In this document: in pieces, positions 32,566 through 42,798 of the stretch
How positions within the stretch are numbered: position 1 is the first letter of the stretch
How the letters are laid out: the number at the start of each line of letters is the position of its first letter
Origin: Clostridiales bacterium GWD2_32_19
GTDB lineage: Bacteria > Bacillota > Clostridia > Lachnospirales > UBA12420
Reading direction: 5' to 3'
NCBI GenBank assembly: GCA_001795385.1
Contig: MGOU01000021.1
Coordinates: 142,149-188,815, forward strand
Length of the DNA stretch: 46,667 nucleotides
The notes under the pieces: model-generated
The model's input: the letters and a program-made list of their open reading frames with translations, nothing else
What the model was told of the DNA's origin: nothing
Database searches by the model: none
Translations under genes and position numbers: made by a program

Positions 32566-35500
32566 TTATCTCTCTATTTCTTCTCCAGTAATATCTATGC
32601 TATAACTATGACTTACAGATGCTTCCTGTATATCACCACTTGCCCAATAATATGATGTAACATCCCAATATTGATTACTTATAGTTCTAAGCGGTCCTCT
32701 ATAGTTTACCCTATTTAATATTGTAACTACTTCGGCTCTTGTTATTGCTTGGGTGACATTTTTAGTTACTAAATCACTATCAAGTAACAACTTCAATCTA
32801 TATAATTGCTCTATTTCATTTGCTGCCCAATATGTCCTGATTTGTGGAAAGTGAATAGTTAAAGTTTCTTTATTTGCAACTTCAACTCTTCTGGCTATTA
32901 TTGTTAAAAATTCAGCTTTTGTTATAGGTGCTTCTGGTCTAAATGTTCCGTCATTATATCCTGATAATAATCCTAAATTTGTTGCTGTCATTATTTCATT
33001 ATATCCCCAACATGTTTGTGGAGTTACATCTTTATATCTTGATGGTATTGGGCTATAACTATTGTATGAATTCATAGTTCCATAAGAGTATGTGCTACCA
33101 ACTGAACCTAGGTTAAATATTCTAACTACTGCCGCTGCTAATTCTTGTCTTGTTATCTTATTTTCTGGTCTAAATGTGCCATCTGGGTATCCATACATAT
33201 ATAAATCATGTTGTCCCGATGCATTTCTCTCGTAAATAAAATTTTTAACTTGAGAATCATCTTCTTCATCATTATCTTCATATATTTTTGCTACAAGCAC
33301 TACTTCATCAGTTCCGCTTACATCATCATATTTTAATACTACTTCGTATCTTCCTGTATCATCTTCATCTACTGTTCCTACATCCCAAGTTATCTTTGTA
33401 GTAGTTTTTGTTCCACCATCTGAATCTATTACAGTCATCTTTTTAGGAAATGTCAATGTTATTTCAACATCTTCTAAATCTTCATCTGTCCCATTATAGT
33501 AGTCAACATAATAAGTAATTTTTGTTCCTTCTAGATATTTTATACTATTTTCTTTATTACTTAGCTCTACTTTCAATCCTGTTATATCTGAGTTTATGTC
33601 ATCATCTATATCCTCATCATCATCTTCTTCAACGACTTTGACATCTATAGAATCTTTCTTTGTTATTCCATCTTCTTCATATGTTGCAGTTATAGTTACA
33701 GTTCCTTCGTCGTCACCGCTTTTTACTTTATAGCTTGATGTAATATAAGCTACATCTTCATCTTCTGATTCGAATTCAACATCTTCTGTTACATAGTCTG
33801 TAGTATCATCGTTATAATATGCTTTTACTTTTAAAGTGTCTCCATATTCTCCAAAACCTACTATAGTCTCCTTCTCGCCAGGTATAATTTCTATTTTTGT
33901 TAGTTCTACTATACCTTCTGGTATATCTTCGTCATCTATATCCTCATCATCTATAACTTTTACATATATAGACTCATACTTTGTAATACCACCTTCTGTA
34001 TAAGTAACTTCTATATATGTATTACCTTCTTTAACTCCACTCTTTAATCTATAAGTAAGCTCATTGACTGTTGCAATACTTGAATTTACACTGTCATAAA
34101 TTGAAGCATTTGTTACATCTTTTCTACTTCCATTATCATATACAGCTGTTACTGTAACTGGTACTGAAATTGTATTAAGACCATATATTGTTTTTTGTGT
34201 TGGTGTAACTTCTATTCCCTTTAATATCCCTGTATTATTACCTGTTGGACATACAATTACATTAACTGTATCGGTAGAAGTTCTTCCACCTTCTATATAT
34301 GTAACTGTTATTATAGCTGTTCCTGCTATACTACCACTCTTTGCATAGTAAGTTGAGTTTATGGTTGCTATAGAATCATTTGAACTATTATAGCTTGATG
34401 AACTCGTTACCGTTCTTGTAGTTCCGTCTGAATAATTTGCAACTACTGTTAATCTATTTCCTGTAACCCCATATCCTGTTATTGTTTGTGTACTTGGTGT
34501 TGCTGTTATACTTTGGAGGGTTGCATCTTGCTGGCCTTCTTCTACTATTACTCTTACAGTAGTGGATTTTGTTACTCCATCCGTATAATTTATTGTTATA
34601 GTAGCCGTTCCTGCAGTGTTTCCACTCTTTGCATAGTAAGTTGAGTTTATGGTTGCTATAGAATCATTTGAACTATTATAACTTGATGAACTTGTTACAG
34701 TTCTTGTAGTTCCGTCTGAATAGTTTGCTACTACTGTTAATCTATTTCCTGTAACTCCATATCCTGTTATTGTTTGTGTACTTGGTGTTGCTGTTATACT
34801 TTGTAGTGTTGCTGCTTGGGTATTATCAATTACTGTTACACTAGCTGTAGTAGATTTTGTTACACCATCCGTATATCTAACTGTTATAGTGGCTGTTCCT
34901 ACTGTATTTCCACTTATTGCATAACAAATTGAGTTTATAGTTGTTATGCTGTTGTTTGAACTTGTATAGTTTGCCGAACTTGTTACTGTTCTTTTTGTTC
35001 CATCTGAGTAGTTTGCAACTACTGCTAATCTATCTCCCATAACTCCAAATCCTTTTATTGTTTGTGTACTTGGGGTTACTGTTATACTATCTAGGGTTAC
35101 ATCTTGATTTGGTTGATCATCGTCATCATCTCCATCATCTTCTGTTACTATTACTCTAGCTGTAGTAGATCTTGTTACACCATCTGTATATCTCACTGTT
35201 ATAGTAGCTGTTCCTGCTGTACTTCCACTCTTTGGATAACAAATTGAATTTATGGTTGCTATACTGTTATTTGAACTTATATAGCTTGCTGAACTTGTTA
35301 CTGTTCTTTTTGTTCCATCTGAGTAGTTTGCAACTACTTCTAACCTATCCCCCGTAACTCCAAATCCAGTTATTGTTTGTGTGTTTGGCGTTACTATTAT
35401 ACTATCTAGGGTTACATCTTGATTTGGTTGATCATCGTCATCTTCATCATCTTCTTCTTCCACGATTACTTTAGCTGTAGTAGATCTTGTTACACCATCT

Positions 35501-36720
35501 GTATATTGGACAGTTATGGTAGCTGTTCCTACTCTACTACCACTTTTCGCATAACAAATTGAGTTTATTGTTGCTATTGAGCTATCTGAACTTATATATT
35601 TCGCTGAACTTGTTACTGTTGTTTTTGTTCCATCTGAGTAGTTTGCAACTACTGCTAATCTATCTCCCATAATGCCAAATCCTGTTATTGTTTGGTTACT
35701 TGGTGTTACTGTTATACTTAAAAGTGCTTTTGATGTGGTATTATTAACAACATCTACCTTAAGAGAATCAGTTCTTTTAATACCATTCTCAGTATAATTA
35801 GCATCCATTATTATACCACCTGTATTAGCTCCACTATGCAAGTATCCATCACTAGCTGAATAATAAACTACATTTGAAGCAGGTGATATAATTGCTGTAT
35901 TACTATTGTTTGTAACATCAGAAGTTTGACCATTTGTATAATATGCTGTAACTTTAACCTTTTGATTTGTATATGTGCTATTTGTAGTCATATTAACCGC
36001 TTTAGGTGTTACTGCTATATGATCAAGTGTCCTTACTGTTGTTGATGCCCTATATACTGCACTATCTGGAGTTAACATATCATATACTCTCTGTGCGTTA
36101 GGGGTATGAGGCGTACTTGGACCATTTCCATATACAACCCCATCATATTTTGCAGCATCAGCTACCGATTGCAATGTTACTTGCGTAAAGTATCCATTTT
36201 TAGGTAAACCAGCACTTGAAGCATATGTACTACTCCTCACCGATAATAAAGGTCTTACATAAACTTCTATTTGATATGATATACTAAATGTATAAGTATA
36301 TGCATCTTTAGAGGTACCTCCATTATTGATGGAATCTATTACACCTTGAATAAGACTATCTACTGTAGAATTTGTAGATGAGCTTGCCTTCATATTAGAC
36401 AATATACCCGGTATAGATGGATTACCCATTATTGCGAAATTGTCACTTTTAAAAGTTGGAGAAAGTGGCTCTGCAAATAAACTGTTTGTTGTAGTTTTTG
36501 AAAGCATTAGTCCTGAGTTCGCTCCGTCGTTACGTTGTATGTTAAAATACTGTCTTATTGCTATACCACTCCAAGTTGATTCAGTATTAGATCCTCCAGA
36601 TATATTTCCAGGATTATAAGTACCTCCTATTATTAATGCGTAGCTACTTGATATCTGCATTAATAACATAACTGCTATTAATAGTATTGATATTGTAATA
36701 TTTCCTAATTTTCTTTTCAT
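32566..36720 (-). CDS. S-layer-homology surface protein with tandem Ig-like repeats
   Basis: A 1384-residue secreted protein. The signal peptide is residues 1-29 (hydrophobic core, then SSSYA). A unique N-terminal region runs to about residue 235. It is followed by about eight bacterial Ig-like (BIG2-type) repeats, marked by ITVTPSTQTITGFG and VVANYSDGTKRTVTSS. Asp/Glu-rich linkers (such as EEEDDEDDDDQPNQ) separate some repeats. A further beta domain (about 1060-1165) precedes three C-terminal SLH domains (GYPDGTFRPENKITRQE, GYNDGTFRPEAPITKAE, and a degenerate third) that should bind pyruvylated secondary cell-wall polymer. The repeats may hold a binding tip away from the wall. It has its own promoter and terminator. 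Confidence 0.94.
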   Translation of the reverse strand: MKRKLGNITISILLIAVMLLMQISSSYALIIGGTYNPGNISGGSNTESTWSGIAIRQYFNIQRNDGANSGLMLSKTTTNSLFAEPLSPTFKSDNFAIMGNPSIPGILSNMKASSSTNSTVDSLIQGVIDSINNGGTSKDAYTYTFSISYQIEVYVRPLLSVRSSTYASSAGLPKNGYFTQVTLQSVADAAKYDGVVYGNGPSTPHTPNAQRVYDMLTPDSAVYRASTTVRTLDHIAVTPKAVNMTTNSTYTNQKVKVTAYYTNGQTSDVTNNSNTAIISPASNVVYYSASDGYLHSGANTGGIIMDANYTENGIKRTDSLKVDVVNNTTSKALLSITVTPSNQTITGFGIMGDRLAVVANYSDGTKTTVTSSAKYISSDSSIATINSICYAKSGSRVGTATITVQYTDGVTRSTTAKVIVEEEDDEDDDDQPNQDVTLDSIIVTPNTQTITGFGVTGDRLEVVANYSDGTKRTVTSSASYISSNNSIATINSICYPKSGSTAGTATITVRYTDGVTRSTTARVIVTEDDGDDDDDQPNQDVTLDSITVTPSTQTIKGFGVMGDRLAVVANYSDGTKRTVTSSANYTSSNNSITTINSICYAISGNTVGTATITVRYTDGVTKSTTASVTVIDNTQAATLQSITATPSTQTITGYGVTGNRLTVVANYSDGTTRTVTSSSSYNSSNDSIATINSTYYAKSGNTAGTATITINYTDGVTKSTTVRVIVEEGQQDATLQSITATPSTQTITGYGVTGNRLTVVANYSDGTTRTVTSSSSYNSSNDSIATINSTYYAKSGSIAGTAIITVTYIEGGRTSTDTVNVIVCPTGNNTGILKGIEVTPTQKTIYGLNTISVPVTVTAVYDNGSRKDVTNASIYDSVNSSIATVNELTYRLKSGVKEGNTYIEVTYTEGGITKYESIYVKVIDDEDIDDEDIPEGIVELTKIEIIPGEKETIVGFGEYGDTLKVKAYYNDDTTDYVTEDVEFESEDEDVAYITSSYKVKSGDDEGTVTITATYEEDGITKKDSIDVKVVEEDDDEDIDDDINSDITGLKVELSNKENSIKYLEGTKITYYVDYYNGTDEDLEDVEITLTFPKKMTVIDSDGGTKTTTKITWDVGTVDEDDTGRYEVVLKYDDVSGTDEVVLVAKIYEDNDEEDDSQVKNFIYERNASGQHDLYMYGYPDGTFRPENKITRQELAAAVVRIFNLGSVGSTYSYGTMNSYNSYSPIPSRYKDVTPQTCWGYNEIMTATNLGLLSGYNDGTFRPEAPITKAEFLTIIARRVEVANKETLTIHFPQIRTYWAANEIEQLYRLKLLLDSDLVTKNVTQAITRAEVVTILNRVNYRGPLRTISNQYWDVTSYYWASGDIQEASVSHSYSIDITGEEIER
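34240..35720 (-). repeat. Tandem DNA repeats coding the Ig-like units
   Basis: Four to five consecutive units of roughly 285-300 bp. The best pair is offset by exactly 288 bp (96 codons), and its two repeats share 55 consecutive identical residues at the start. Other units differ mainly in linker length and acidity. The near-identity indicates recent duplication or gene conversion. Confidence 0.8.
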
Positions 36721-38092: not shown

Positions 38093-38473
38093 ACATTTCT
38101 CCTTTTTTAATTTGAATTGTGTTAAAACCTACGATATACTACTCTTTCCACACTTGTTTTTTATTAACATACTCGCTAAATCGTCTTCGTGAAGCCAATT
38201 AGCATAGGTGTTTTCTAAGCTAGTAATAAAATTTCTTTATATGAGTGTAATGAAGCATTCCCTTGCATTAACATTAATTTACACAAATATAAAGATTTCT
38301 ACTAGTATTTACATTAGCATCAATTAATAAACCCACAAAAACTATGAGTTATTACTTTAATCAAGAGATTGCTTCGTTACACGCAACTATTTTTTTCAAA
38401 TAATCCATTTTACTCCCGTTAGTGGCTTATTATTCTTTAACATTCACTGACTTCTATAATTTAATTTTGGAAT
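38093..38473. other. Gene-free stretch with decayed repeat pieces
   Basis: I see no ORF with a ribosome site on either strand. A CGCTAAATCGTCTTCGTGAAGCC stretch near 38173 and AGAGATTGCTTCGTTACACGCAAC near 38365 resemble the two inner arms of the composite repeat, separated by unrelated sequence. The ackA promoter must lie here but is not obvious. Confidence 0.5.
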
Positions 38474-39061
38474 TTAAATCTTTTTTTGAGTTATAACATT
38501 TATCCACCTTGTATCTCTTCCTGGATATGTATCTCCTGAAATCCATACTTCTTTAACATTATTGCCAGGAATACTATCCAGCAATTTTATTAATGTTTCC
38601 TCTGTATAAAAATTAAAAAATCTACCATCTATAATTTCTTCCTTATTACCGTATTTAAAAGTTAAATAAAATACACCATTACTTTTAAGTGCATCAAAAC
38701 ACTTTTCCAAAATATATTTAATTTCATCTTTTTTTATATGCATCATACCCGCACTAAAGATTGCATCAAATTGTTCTTTATATTTCATATCTCTCATGTC
38801 CATTACTTCAACCTTTAGACCTGTATATATTTCAGTAAGTTTTGCTAAATTTTCACTATAATCCAGTGGTGTAACATTATAACCTTGCTCATTAAAATAT
38901 TTACTATCTCTACCGCTTCCGCAACCTAAATCTAATATACTATCTCCTTGTTTTAGATATTTTTCGAACACACTAGTTATACTACTAAAATCAATACAAT
39001 AAGTATTATCAAAATATTGTTTAGCATTATTTTCATAATATTCTTTAGTTATATCAGTCAT
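38474..39061 (-). CDS. Class I SAM-dependent methyltransferase
   Basis: A 195-residue methyltransferase with motif I ILDLGCGSGRDSKYF, an acidic residue after the second strand (VTPLDYSEN) and a motif IV-like FDAIFSAGMMHI. It is of the small-molecule type; the substrate is unknown. It resembles generic methyltransferases of the tellurite-resistance or ubiquinone-type group and has no DNA-methylase motif. TAAGGAG precedes the ATG. It is the last gene of the nucleotide cassette, 46 bp after the pyrophosphohydrolase gene, and may be functionally unrelated. Confidence 0.88.
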   Translation of the reverse strand: MTDITKEYYENNAKQYFDNTYCIDFSSITSVFEKYLKQGDSILDLGCGSGRDSKYFNEQGYNVTPLDYSENLAKLTEIYTGLKVEVMDMRDMKYKEQFDAIFSAGMMHIKKDEIKYILEKCFDALKSNGVFYLTFKYGNKEEIIDGRFFNFYTEETLIKLLDSIPGNNVKEVWISGDTYPGRDTRWINVITQKKI

Positions 39062-39107
39062 AAACTTTCTCCTTATATGTTATATTAAATATATCATCTA
39101 CTAACAA

Positions 39108-39458
39108 TTAATCTGCTTTATAGTCTTCTCTTCCTTCAACTTTCCCTAATTGTCTTTCTATGTTATGTAATTGTTTTTCATGAATAACATCAAATATATC
39201 ATTTTCAAATCCTAATCTAATGATAAGATCAAGCCATATCAAGAATACATCACCAAGCTCTTCTTTTATCTTAGTTTCATCCTCTTGTTCAGGTCTCTTC
39301 CAATACTTATAGTTTATAGCTCTATTAACTTCATCTGTTTCTCCAACAATATATGCCATGTAACTCATAATCATATCTCTACGATCCCTAAACTCATATC
39401 TATGTTTATCCATATGTTGTTTTACTTCTTTTTGTCTTTCTATTAACTTATTTATCAT
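39108..39458 (-). CDS. MazG-like nucleotide pyrophosphohydrolase
   Basis: All-alpha NTP pyrophosphohydrolase of about 116 residues. The metal-binding pattern is visible as two acidic clusters, ETDEVNRAI and EELGDVFLIWLDLI, the ExxE/ExxD signature of MazG and dCTPase/dUTPase relatives. It should cut a (d)NTP to (d)NMP and pyrophosphate. I start it at the ATG at 39458, with GAGGTGA six bases upstream. Its place in a cassette with a dCMP-type ThyA homologue and dCMP deaminase makes dCTP or dUTP likely substrates; this is inference. Confidence 0.85.
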   Translation of the reverse strand: MINKLIERQKEVKQHMDKHRYEFRDRRDMIMSYMAYIVGETDEVNRAINYKYWKRPEQEDETKIKEELGDVFLIWLDLIIRLGFENDIFDVIHEKQLHNIERQLGKVEGREDYKAD

Positions 39459-39478
39459 TACGCTCACCTCAATTAAAT

Positions 39479-40366
39479 TTATATTATTTTTACTTTATTT
39501 ACCCAGTCTTTTATAGTATCAGTTTTAATATTCATATTTCCCGTTCCGATTCCAATACTATTTCCTTTCCGCACTTCTCCACCGTGATAATCTGTACCAC
39601 CTGAAATATAAAGATTATTTTGGCTACAGAATCGAACTAAAAACTCTGACTCTTCATCAGTAAATGTTGAATGGTAACATTCTATTCCATCCAACTTATG
39701 CTCGAAAAACAATTCTTTTAGAAATATATCCATATCGTATATTTTGTATTCACACGGATGAGCTAAAAACAGTAATCCTCCATCTTCCTTTACTAATTGA
39801 ATAAGCTCACCTAAGCTTGGGAAAATGTTTCTTTCACCTATATACCAAACATCCTCTTCATTACTTCTATATTTTCTATAAAAAACCTCCAAGTTATTCC
39901 ACGCATCTTCAGGAAATTTATCTTTATTCTCTTCATACTTACAGATTTCCATAAGTAATATGTTAGATGATGATCTAACTTCATTAGATTTTAGCAATAC
40001 ATCTTTGTCATATTTAATATTTAAGTCATTACAAACCTTAATTCCCCTCAAAATTTCTTCTAACACTTGTCTTTTCTTAACTTCTATAGAGAATTTTTTC
40101 TCACACCAATTATTTACTTTTTCATACTCTATTCCATAGCATAAAACTTCTATGTTTAACCCCTTAAAGGTAGTTTGCATCTCACAACCAGCTATTATTT
40201 TTCCACTATATATTTTTCTATTTTTTTCTATTTCAAAATACGCCTGACATGTATCATGATCTGTAATAGATATATATTCCAATTTCAAATCTTCTGCCAT
40301 TTTTAAAATCTCACTTGGTGTATTACATCCGTCAGAGCATTTTGTATGTATATGCAAATCTATCAT
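39479..40366 (-). CDS. PHP-domain phosphoesterase
   Basis: Metal-dependent phosphoesterase of the PHP family, of the type that includes 3',5'-nucleoside bisphosphate phosphatase and RNase AM. Metal motifs are in order: DLHIHTKCSDG, ITDHDT, AGCEMQ, LAHPCEY and GGTDYHGG. A helical insert separates the third and fourth motifs. The start is the ATG at 40366 (295 residues), preceded by GAGGTGA; the longer reading to 40417 overlaps dfrA. A nucleotide-phosphatase role would suit the cassette but the substrate is unproved. Confidence 0.9.
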   Translation of the reverse strand: MIDLHIHTKCSDGCNTPSEILKMAEDLKLEYISITDHDTCQAYFEIEKNRKIYSGKIIAGCEMQTTFKGLNIEVLCYGIEYEKVNNWCEKKFSIEVKKRQVLEEILRGIKVCNDLNIKYDKDVLLKSNEVRSSSNILLMEICKYEENKDKFPEDAWNNLEVFYRKYRSNEEDVWYIGERNIFPSLGELIQLVKEDGGLLFLAHPCEYKIYDMDIFLKELFFEHKLDGIECYHSTFTDEESEFLVRFCSQNNLYISGGTDYHGGEVRKGNSIGIGTGNMNIKTDTIKDWVNKVKII

Positions 40367-40376
40367 TACACTCACC

Positions 40377-40862
40377 TCAAATTCTTTTATAAACCACCCA
40401 CACGAATGAATATTCACCTTTTATAGACTCTTTTGTAGCCTGTACATTTTCTATTTCCCATTCATCTCCTATGTCAGGAAAGAAAGTGTCTGCAAGGAAT
40501 TCGTGAAATATATGTGTTATATAAAGTTTATCTGCATAAGGCATGAATTGTTCATAAATAGACTGCCCTCCACATATAAATACATCACTTTTTGTAGTTT
40601 TTCGTGCTAGTTCTAATACATCTTCTATGTTATTATATACTACAGCACCTTCAAAGTTTAAATTTTCTCTTGTGAGTATTATGTTTTCTCTATCTTTCAA
40701 AGGTTTTTGTGGAAGGCTCTCATATGTTTTTCTACCCATTACAACTATATTGTCTTTTGTAATGTTTTTAAAGTATTGTAAATCTTCTTTTATGTATGCT
40801 AATAGTTTATTATCCTTGCCTATTCCATTATGATTGTCTATGGCAACAATAATATTTATCAT
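40377..40862 (-). CDS. folA: Dihydrofolate reductase
   Basis: Reduces dihydrofolate to tetrahydrofolate with NADPH. The start is typical (INIIVAIDNHNGIGKDNKLL), followed by VVMGRKTYESLP, ILTRE and FICGGQSIYEQFMPY, with the substrate-binding acidic residue in the KEDLQYF helix. The length of 161 residues is normal. Its ATG overlaps the thyA-like stop by four bases, so the two are translationally coupled. A DHFR is needed when the folate cofactor is oxidised, as in methylation by ThyA, but not in simple hydroxymethylation. That matters for the activity of the neighbour. Confidence 0.96.
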   Translation of the reverse strand: MINIIVAIDNHNGIGKDNKLLAYIKEDLQYFKNITKDNIVVMGRKTYESLPQKPLKDRENIILTRENLNFEGAVVYNNIEDVLELARKTTKSDVFICGGQSIYEQFMPYADKLYITHIFHEFLADTFFPDIGDEWEIENVQATKESIKGEYSFVWVVYKRI

Positions 40863-41689
40863 ATAGATACCTCAAATTTAGGTATATCTGGTCCTGCTAC
40901 ATAGTCAGTCAATATAAAATCTTCATGTTTAAAATCGTAAAAGTTCTTTATATCTGGATTAAGTGAAAACTTTGGTGCTGGAAATTCTTTAGCCTCCAAT
41001 AATTTTTCAGCCGATGGTACATGTCTATCATATATATGACAATCAGCGATAACATGAAGCAGCTTACCTGGCTTTAATCCTGTTACCTGTGCAATCATAT
41101 GAATTAATACGGCATGTTGCACGACATCCCAATTACCTGCTGCTAACATATCTGCTGATCTTTGATTTAATATAGCATTTAATTTATCTCCTACAACATT
41201 AAATGTCATAGAGTATACACATGGATATATTCCCATTTCGTGTAAGTCTTGATGAACATATGTATTTGTTATTATTCTTCGAGAATATGGATTGTTTTTT
41301 AAATCATATATTACTCTATCAACCTGGTCAAATTCCCCTTCTTTATATTTATGTTTTATGCCTAGTTGATATCCATATGTTTTTCCTATTGATCCTTTTT
41401 CATCAGCCCAGCTATCCCATATTCTTAAATTAAAATCATTTATATTATTAGATTTCTTCTGCCACATCCATAGTAATTCTTCAATTACTGATTTAAGATT
41501 TATAGGCCTTATTGTCAATAGTGGAAATTCTTTAGATAAATCATACTCATTAACTACACCAAAAAGCTTTTTAGTATATGCCCTAGTCCCATCTGGCCAA
41601 TTACCTCTAACATTTTCACCTGTCGTGTCAAAGCCTTCTTCAAGTATTTTCCTACAAGTATCTTTGTATATTTTATCTACCATACTCAT
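40859..41689 (-). CDS. thyA: ThyA-family pyrimidine methylase with Asn-to-Asp at the base-selecting site
   Basis: Thymidylate synthase fold, 276 residues. Catalytic Cys157 (IYPCVYS), phosphate-binding Arg177 and Asp180 (NQRSAD), His218/Tyr220 (CHIYDRH), Glu71 and the folate-binding tryptophans are present. Thymidylate synthases have an Asn after the phosphate loop (Escherichia coli Asn177) that reads dUMP; here it is Asp188 in AAGNWDVVQHA, coded GAT at 41126-41128. Asp at this position is found in phage dCMP hydroxymethylase, and the engineered change shifts thymidylate synthase to dCMP. I infer dCMP as substrate, giving 5-methyl- or 5-hydroxymethyl-dCMP; ordinary dTMP synthesis is the alternative. 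GGAGATG precedes the ATG, which overlaps the upstream stop by four bases. Confidence 0.9.
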   Translation of the reverse strand: MSMVDKIYKDTCRKILEEGFDTTGENVRGNWPDGTRAYTKKLFGVVNEYDLSKEFPLLTIRPINLKSVIEELLWMWQKKSNNINDFNLRIWDSWADEKGSIGKTYGYQLGIKHKYKEGEFDQVDRVIYDLKNNPYSRRIITNTYVHQDLHEMGIYPCVYSMTFNVVGDKLNAILNQRSADMLAAGNWDVVQHAVLIHMIAQVTGLKPGKLLHVIADCHIYDRHVPSAEKLLEAKEFPAPKFSLNPDIKNFYDFKHEDFILTDYVAGPDIPKFEVSI

Positions 41690-42798
41690 AATTCAACATC
41701 TCCTTTAAAGTTTTCTAACAAACTCGGATTATACTTTTCTGCATATTCACACAAAGCTTTAAGTGCAGTTTCATCATTAATATCTGGTATAGTCTCACTC
41801 ATATTATTAACTTCAGTACCAGCACTCTCAAATAAATTTGTCGCAGCCTTTGAAAAATCCAAATCATAATATTTATATGACATTGCACTAACACTTGTAA
41901 TTCCTGATTGAAGAACTACTTGAGCACATTTTTCGCAAGGATAAAGTGTTACATATAACGAATAATCATTTAACATACCTCTGTTATTAACAAGTGCATC
42001 TATACATGCATTTACTTCACCATGAACAACATATGGAGCTTTAGTATCTAAATAAGCACCTTCTCTATTCCAAGTAAAGTCTGATTCATCGCATTGATCA
42101 GGAAACTTATTCCAACCAATTCCTACTATTTCTCCCTTTTTATTAACTATAACCGTTCCTGTTTTAGTACTAGGGTCTTTACTAAAATTTTGTGATACAA
42201 TATACGCCGCATTCATATAAGTTTCTCTACTCATCATTTTCATACACTCCTTTTTATGATTATTTGATTTTGATATATCTATTCCTTTTAACTCATTATA
42301 TATTTGTTCACATATTACATCTCTGTTTTCTTCTGTCAAGGTCAATATTTTGATTCCTTCCATCTCTTTTATCAAATCAACTTTTTCATGTTCATTCTGA
42401 AATATAATCCCAAATATAGTCTTATCACTTTTTATAATATCCCCAACAATACTTAAAAATTGATCTGACATCAGCTCCATTGGACCAATCTCATCAATTA
42501 CAAAAATTTTATCATTATCTATCTCTTTTTTAAAATATGGCACTATAACATTATTAAAGCTTTCAATATCTACACCATATCTACCTACTCTTGAATCTGT
42601 ATCAAATTTAACATCAGACATTCGACATCTAGTATCATCTAAAGTCGTACAATCAAATCCAACTCTCTCTCCATTTTCCCTAATTTCTTCTGTATAAAAC
42701 CCAACGCATTTCTCCCTTCCAATTTTCTCAATTATCTTTAGTAAACAAGTTGTTTTACCAACTCCAGGTTTTCCTGTAATAAATATTTTGAGGGACAT
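41686..42798 (-). CDS. NTPase (THEP1-like) fused to dCMP deaminase
   Basis: Two enzymes in one 370-residue frame. Residues 1 to about 175 form a THEP1/NTPCR-type nucleoside triphosphatase with P-loop GKPGVGKTT and Walker B FVIDEIGPMEL. Residues from about 186 form a dCMP deaminase with zinc and catalytic residues His259/Glu261 (HGEVNAC) and Cys288/Cys291 (YPCEKC). The join, at about residue 175-186, carries a ribosome site (AAAGGAG) followed by in-frame ATGs at 42243 and 42237, so the deaminase may also be made alone. It heads the cassette, 44 bp after pta. The deaminase should convert dCMP, and perhaps 5-methyl-dCMP, to dUMP or dTMP. Confidence 0.92.
   Translation of the reverse strand: MSLKIFITGKPGVGKTTCLLKIIEKIGREKCVGFYTEEIRENGERVGFDCTTLDDTRCRMSDVKFDTDSRVGRYGVDIESFNNVIVPYFKKEIDNDKIFVIDEIGPMELMSDQFLSIVGDIIKSDKTIFGIIFQNEHEKVDLIKEMEGIKILTLTEENRDVICEQIYNELKGIDISKSNNHKKECMKMMSRETYMNAAYIVSQNFSKDPSTKTGTVIVNKKGEIVGIGWNKFPDQCDESDFTWNREGAYLDTKAPYVVHGEVNACIDALVNNRGMLNDYSLYVTLYPCEKCAQVVLQSGITSVSAMSYKYYDLDFSKAATNLFESAGTEVNNMSETIPDINDETALKALCEYAEKYNPSLLENFKGDVEL

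Follow-up and report, generated by a model that had tools for sequence, protein, structure and literature searches.

A predicted methylate-first route to thymidylate encoded between pta and ackA in a Clostridiales bacterium

We analyzed a 46,667-nucleotide stretch of the genome of Clostridiales bacterium GWD2_32_19 (contig MGOU01000021.1; hereafter the window), in which a minus-strand gene run encodes a homologue of the thymidylate synthase (TS) ThyA next to a deoxycytidine monophosphate (dCMP) deaminase and a dihydrofolate reductase (DHFR). Cells are taken to make deoxythymidine monophosphate (dTMP) from deoxyuridine monophosphate (dUMP), by ThyA or ThyX. The ThyA homologue of the window carries Asp at the position where dUMP-specific enzymes have Asn. 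We propose, with a probability of roughly 0.65, that this gut-type bacterium makes dTMP solely by way of dCMP and 5-methyl-dCMP, with enzyme specificities predicted from sequence. Somewhat more cautiously, we suggest that the bacterium is without any dUMP-methylating enzyme and that all thymine of its genome would pass through 5-methyl-dCMP, a third cellular route to dTMP beside those of ThyA and ThyX acting on dUMP.

In the proposed pathway, the Asp-type ThyA (Asp-ThyA) would methylate dCMP at C5 with methylene-tetrahydrofolate as the one-carbon donor, yielding 5-methyl-dCMP and dihydrofolate, DHFR would turn dihydrofolate back into tetrahydrofolate, and the dCMP deaminase half of a fusion protein would deaminate 5-methyl-dCMP to dTMP. 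We infer the substrate preferences of ThyA and of the deaminase, and likewise any role of the nucleoside triphosphatase (NTPase) part of the fusion and of a MazG-like protein encoded in the same run.

A methylate-first pathway had been put forward in a sequence-only reading of the window. It is partly supported, in that the Asp column, the deaminase and DHFR are in place, the protein lacks a hydroxymethylase signature, and neither another synthase nor a thymidine kinase was found in the genome searches described below; it is less new than that reading implied. Phage XP-12 uses a dCMP methylase and a 5-methyl-deoxycytidine triphosphate (5-methyl-dCTP) deaminase to arrive at deoxythymidine triphosphate (dTTP) (Wang and Ehrlich 1982, Kuo et al. 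1982, both as cited in PMC12088426). The route predicted for the window would share with XP-12 a TS-type enzyme that first methylates a cytosine nucleotide and a zinc deaminase that then deaminates it. XP-12 differs in being a virus that carries 5-methylcytosine in its DNA and deaminates the triphosphate, whereas the genes of the window are chromosomal, apparently provide the only route of the cell and include a deaminase resembling monophosphate enzymes. Methylate-first synthesis of thymidylate is so far reported only for phage XP-12, and the textbook order is the reverse. Given this precedent the logic of the pathway is known, and the novelty would lie in a cell relying on it as the only thymidylate route.

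If the proposal is correct, the order of methylation and deamination would be reversible in essential metabolism and not just in a phage, and a switch of one residue, familiar from mutants since 1992, would be used repeatedly in nature. Genome annotation would then be giving the name 'thymidylate synthase' to a dCMP methylase, and an organism of this kind might be insensitive to fluoro-dUMP-type drugs.

The active site of the ThyA homologue

The window genome (G000, 97.6% complete) was compared with two congeners, the metagenome-assembled genome (MAG) UBA12072 (G001, 97%), which carries the corresponding locus L002, and a third genome (G002, 91%). The ThyA homologue belongs to the thymidylate synthase fold family (PF00303) by its profile match and its catalytic residues. 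Cys157, Arg177, Ser178, Asp180, His218 and Tyr220, equivalent to E. coli Cys146, Arg166, Ser167, Asp169, His207 and Tyr209, are all retained, as the sequence-only reading had stated. An AlphaFold2 model with a predicted local distance difference test score (pLDDT) of 94 found its best fold match in B. subtilis ThyA (1b02, TM score 0.96), with which the protein shares the catalytic residues and the C-terminal tail. In contrast to the B. subtilis enzyme, it has Asp rather than Asn at the base-reading position, in addition to Thr104 and His192. This Asp is residue 188 (minus-strand codon GAT, 41128-41126), and alignment places it in the column of E. coli Asn177, where it had been located before. 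Column numbers refer to E. coli ThyA; the same column holds Asn in B. subtilis ThyA 1b02 as well. The Asn that marks a dUMP-specific TS is missing from the window protein, which instead pairs Asp at 177 with a TS-type C-terminal tail, as expected of a TS-type dCMP methylase.

Four differences in or near the active site separate the window protein and its L002 counterpart from Asn-type relatives, i.e., Ala104Thr, Ala158Val, Asn188Asp and Tyr192His. In E. coli columns, Thr104 corresponds to 93 (adjoining Tyr94), Val158 to 147 (adjoining the catalytic Cys), Asp188 to 177 and His192 to 181. Asp188 and His192 lie one turn apart on one helix (187-202) of the AlphaFold2 model, in which His192 may support the carboxylate of Asp188. 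The window protein and its counterpart in the sister genome are 92% identical with a ratio of nonsynonymous to synonymous substitution rates (dN/dS) of 0.085; the window ThyA is under strong purifying selection.

Exchange of Asn177 for Asp in TS has been described to shift the preference from dUMP to dCMP, with 5-methyl-dCMP as product (PMC8670742), which supports the earlier claim that such mutants act on dCMP. Columns 177 and 147 were the top two in separating the TSs of cytosine-modified phage contigs from those of unmodified ones (PMC8670742). The Asp177 phage TSs of this MetaGPA study resemble the window enzyme in having Asp at 177 and a changed 147, and TS domains co-occur with dCMP deaminase domains there (PMC8670742). 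They differ from it in stemming from phage contigs with modified cytosine, whereas the window gene is chromosomal and no other thymidylate synthase was found in its genome.

Enzymes that hydroxymethylate dCMP carry an acidic residue (Asp or Glu) at the third position ahead of the catalytic Cys and have no TS-type C-terminal tail (PMC6400193). In the window protein the residue aligned with T4 Asp145 is Ile154 (Leu in L002), and the tail is present, ending in FEVSI. T4 dCMP hydroxymethylase (gp42) resembles the window protein in having Asp at the cytosine-reading position (Asp179), an equivalence taken from the literature, since automatic alignment puts gp42 Asp179 two columns off at a loop; it differs in having both the acidic residue before Cys and no tail. 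With the hydroxymethylase signature absent and the TS tail kept, we predict methylation. The neighboring DHFR is consistent with this, as a methylating enzyme leaves dihydrofolate behind. The outcome agrees with the preference for methylation in the sequence-only reading.

Thymidylate routes in the genus and the partner deaminase

The search of G000 for a second thyA or thyX, suggested in the earlier reading, returned one ThyA only and no ThyX, and searches of the same genome for thymidine kinase and deoxynucleoside kinase (dNK) found neither. A weak thymidine kinase match in G000 is a PilT-like ATPase. Searches of G001 likewise yielded the Asp-ThyA only, with no ThyX and no dNK; a weak thymidine kinase match in this genome lies in a 391-amino-acid frame resembling the PilT-like ATPase frame of G000. 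These results bear on the possibility that the product of the Asp-ThyA, be it 5-methyl-dCMP or 5-hydroxymethyl-dCMP, serves to build modified DNA, in the style of XP-12 or T4, with dTMP coming from elsewhere. The association of phage Asp-type TSs with modified cytosine DNA (PMC8670742) speaks for such a role. We nevertheless consider it very improbable, as neither G000 nor G001 yielded another dTMP route, the locus between pta and ackA is chromosomal and not a prophage, and the hydroxymethylase signature is lacking.

In G002, neither a ThyA nor a dCMP deaminase was found. Its pta-ackA interval has the order pta, thyX, PHP, deoxycytidine triphosphate (dCTP) deaminase (Dcd), MazG-like, ackA, with the Dcd scoring 93.3 against a cut-off of 92.8 for TIGR02274 and the ThyX matching TIGR02170. 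This ThyX (L226:5162-6583) is 473 amino acids long and has two Thy1 domains in tandem. From gene order and family membership, one locus holds alternative cassettes, either Dcd with ThyX or dCMP deaminase with Asp-ThyA and DHFR, which were apparently swapped in place. The methylate-first operon would occupy the site of its congener's thyX and dCTP deaminase cassette; the direction of the exchange is one that we infer.

The DHFR, deaminase and MazG-like genes named in the sequence-only reading are all present, and the deaminase is in addition the C-terminal half of an NTPase fusion. The fusion matches Pfam NTPase_1 (4.5e-45) and dCMP_cyt_deam_1 (PF00383, 5.2e-18) and scores above the cut-off of NCBIfam NF010248. 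Human dCMP deaminase (DCTD, 2w4l) is the best PDB sequence match of the deaminase half (6e-29), and a fold search of the fusion returned human DCTD and Aquifex THEP1; the AlphaFold model has low confidence over its NTPase half (mean pLDDT 67) and served for fold matching only. The zinc dCMP deaminase motifs HxE and PCxxC read HGE and PCEKC, in line with the profile match, and a segment LDTKxPYV before the zinc histidine is shared with human DCTD. Differences from human DCTD are the fusion to a THEP1-like NTPase and the allosteric motif, which reads GWNK. This motif is G(Y/W)N(A/G) in DCTD (PMC12088426), and all five deaminases directly beside an Asp-ThyA are without its Gly/Ala (GWNK, GYNQ, GFNH, GYNH and AYNR), so that control by dCTP and dTTP may differ. 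Activity of DCTD-type deaminases on 5-methyl-dCMP is reported (PMC12088426), as the earlier reading had held for dCMP deaminases. The window has NTPase and deaminase in one polypeptide. They are separate in L002 (4899-6004), where the NTPase open reading frame (ORF) also stops prematurely close to an A run (~5330), because of a frameshift or else a misassembly. No relatives of the fusion were found on viral contigs.

Deamination might alternatively take place at the triphosphate level, with 5-methyl-dCMP being phosphorylated to 5-methyl-dCTP and the deaminase yielding dTTP. This would parallel XP-12, whose deaminase acts on 5-methyl-dCTP according to the account in PMC12088426, and both the fused NTPase domain and the allosteric motifs without Gly/Ala would suit it. 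The closest relative in sequence and fold is, however, the human dCMP deaminase, a monophosphate enzyme, and the deoxynucleoside triphosphate pool would carry 5-methyl-dCTP. We therefore regard this variant as quite improbable.

Several observations weigh against methylation before deamination. Deaminase, ThyA and DHFR also constitute the ordinary gene set leading from dCMP via dUMP to dTMP, which fits the context equally well and would replace the Dcd and ThyX cassette function for function. As the gene swap fits either reaction order, only the ThyA residues tell the two orders apart. DHFR adjoins nearly all Asn-type thyA genes too, so it is by itself no argument for a new route. Val occupies column 147 of B. 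subtilis ThyA as well, and a change at 147 alone is thus not diagnostic. G000 encodes a dUTPase (L157), so dUMP is presumably made, which would be a dead end under methylation first; its zinc deaminases are TadA, a cytidine deaminase and the operon enzyme. Asp-ThyA in cells is so far known from one bacterial genus. The deaminase halves of the window (41686-42249) and L002 (5468-6004), moreover, share 45% identity with a dN/dS of ~0.62, as opposed to 92% and 0.085 for ThyA. Such fast change would not be expected of an essential enzyme, though HxE and PCxxC are kept in both; the deaminase may be adapting to a new substrate or be weakly constrained.

In a conventional order, the deaminase would convert dCMP to dUMP and ThyA would methylate dUMP, with Asp being tolerated through compensating Val158, His192 and Thr104. 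ThyA is the only synthase found and so must work, and its strong purifying selection is in keeping with that. What makes this order unlikely in our view is that Asn177 is invariant among the Asn-type relatives read, that its change to Asp is reported to shift the preference to dCMP (PMC8670742), and that phage enzymes beside deaminases, as well as a phage Asp clade, show these substitutions again. We hence favor methylation of dCMP ahead of deamination.

Distribution and repeated origin of the Asp form

Asn occupies this column in 79 of the 80 closest relatives on GTDB contigs, the lone Asp being that of MAG UBA12072 (L002), from the same genus and 92% identical. It is also found in 28/28 further close ThyAs and in 20/20 more distant ThyAs of the order, as the sequence-only reading had expected of relatives. 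A DNA pattern for the Asp form was run against sampled genomes of Clostridia (391), Bacillota (398) and the same order (392), and true ThyA matches were obtained in G000 and G001 only. The matching Asn pattern recovered 107/109 close ThyA loci and 12/20 distant ones; the scan is thus sensitive for the window type of ThyA and less so for other types. On these samples, a wide spread of Asp-ThyA in Bacillota was rejected; apparent pattern matches in other genomes were due to chance or other proteins. A sequencing error at the Asp188 codon was likewise rejected, since G001 has the same Asp.

In a tree built without the trait columns, supported branches force at least three changes from Asn to Asp. 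The window pair (100/100), a phage clade of L112, L172 and L177 (100/98), and L174 are set apart from each other, and Thr104, Asp188 and His192 are present in all three lineages. A 29-sequence phage clade of Asp-ThyAs has Val158, Asp188 and, in most members, Thr104 in common with the window protein, but not His192. A phage origin of the window ThyA is unsupported: the protein is placed on a long stem among clostridial chromosomal ThyAs, apart from the phage Asp clades, with weak support for its exact neighbor.

By blast and motif searches, no deaminase-like ORF was found near any of 79 Asn-type chromosomal thyA loci. A deaminase ORF lies directly upstream of Asp-thyA in the window and in L002, and directly downstream in L112, L172 and L177; none was present within the stretch read of L174. 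In the other phage Asp-ThyA clade, a deaminase ORF lies no more than a few kb away at about half of the loci, often next to DHFR. These counts cover related sequences and represent few independent events. On IMG/VR phage contigs, L115-L142 form a large Asp-ThyA clade with a three-residue insertion ahead of Asp, in which Asn replaces Asp in the (A/G)DxHxY motif and DHFR and a deaminase ORF are often nearby. The phage contig of L112, bearing Asp-ThyA and deaminase, also has an apparent C5 cytosine DNA methyltransferase (L112:249-1694) a few kb upstream.

Gene layout and neighboring features

The gene run lies between pta (43865-42843) and ackA (38092-36896) and comprises, in order, the deaminase fusion, thyA, DHFR, PHP, MazG-like and methyltransferase genes (Table 1). 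The deaminase/thyA and thyA/DHFR junctions both have 4-nucleotide overlaps, an arrangement that suggests translational coupling. The MazG-like protein might act on dCTP to release dCMP, or else clear 5-methyl-dCTP. The S-adenosylmethionine (SAM)-dependent methyltransferase is probably outside the thymidylate pathway, because neither G001 nor G002 was found to have it at this position.

Table 1 Features of the minus-strand gene run in the window.
Feature	Coordinates	Strand	Basis or remark
THEP1-like NTPase (~residues 1-170) fused to DCTD-type dCMP deaminase (~187-370)	41686..42798	-	Pfam, NCBIfam, PDB, fold
ThyA homologue, 276 amino acids, Asp188/Val158/His192/Thr104; predicted dCMP C5-methyltransferase	40859..41689	-	PF00303 3.8e-83
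Asp188 codon GAT, base-selecting position (E. coli Asn177)	41126..41128	-	alignment
DHFR	40377..40862	-	PF00186 3.6e-50
PHP-domain phosphoesterase	39479..40417	-	same gene run; also at the G002 locus, not found at the G001 locus
MazG-like all-alpha NTP pyrophosphohydrolase	39108..39467	-	PF03819 7.2e-09, PF08761 1.9e-07; best PDB match YpjD 2gta
SAM-dependent methyltransferase, final gene ahead of ackA	38474..39061	-	not found at the G001 and G002 loci

In the interval that separates the operon from ackA, L002 contains an inverted repeat with TTGCGTGTAACGAAGCAATCC ends (L002:7706-7855), in appearance a small element like a miniature inverted-repeat transposable element, and an end matching this repeat lies at ~38360-38385 of the window. 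Beside ackA, the window encodes a secreted-looking protein of 1384 amino acids (32566-36720) with repeated segments and C-terminal SLH-like repeats, and a similar protein of 1048 amino acids is encoded at the matching position of L002.

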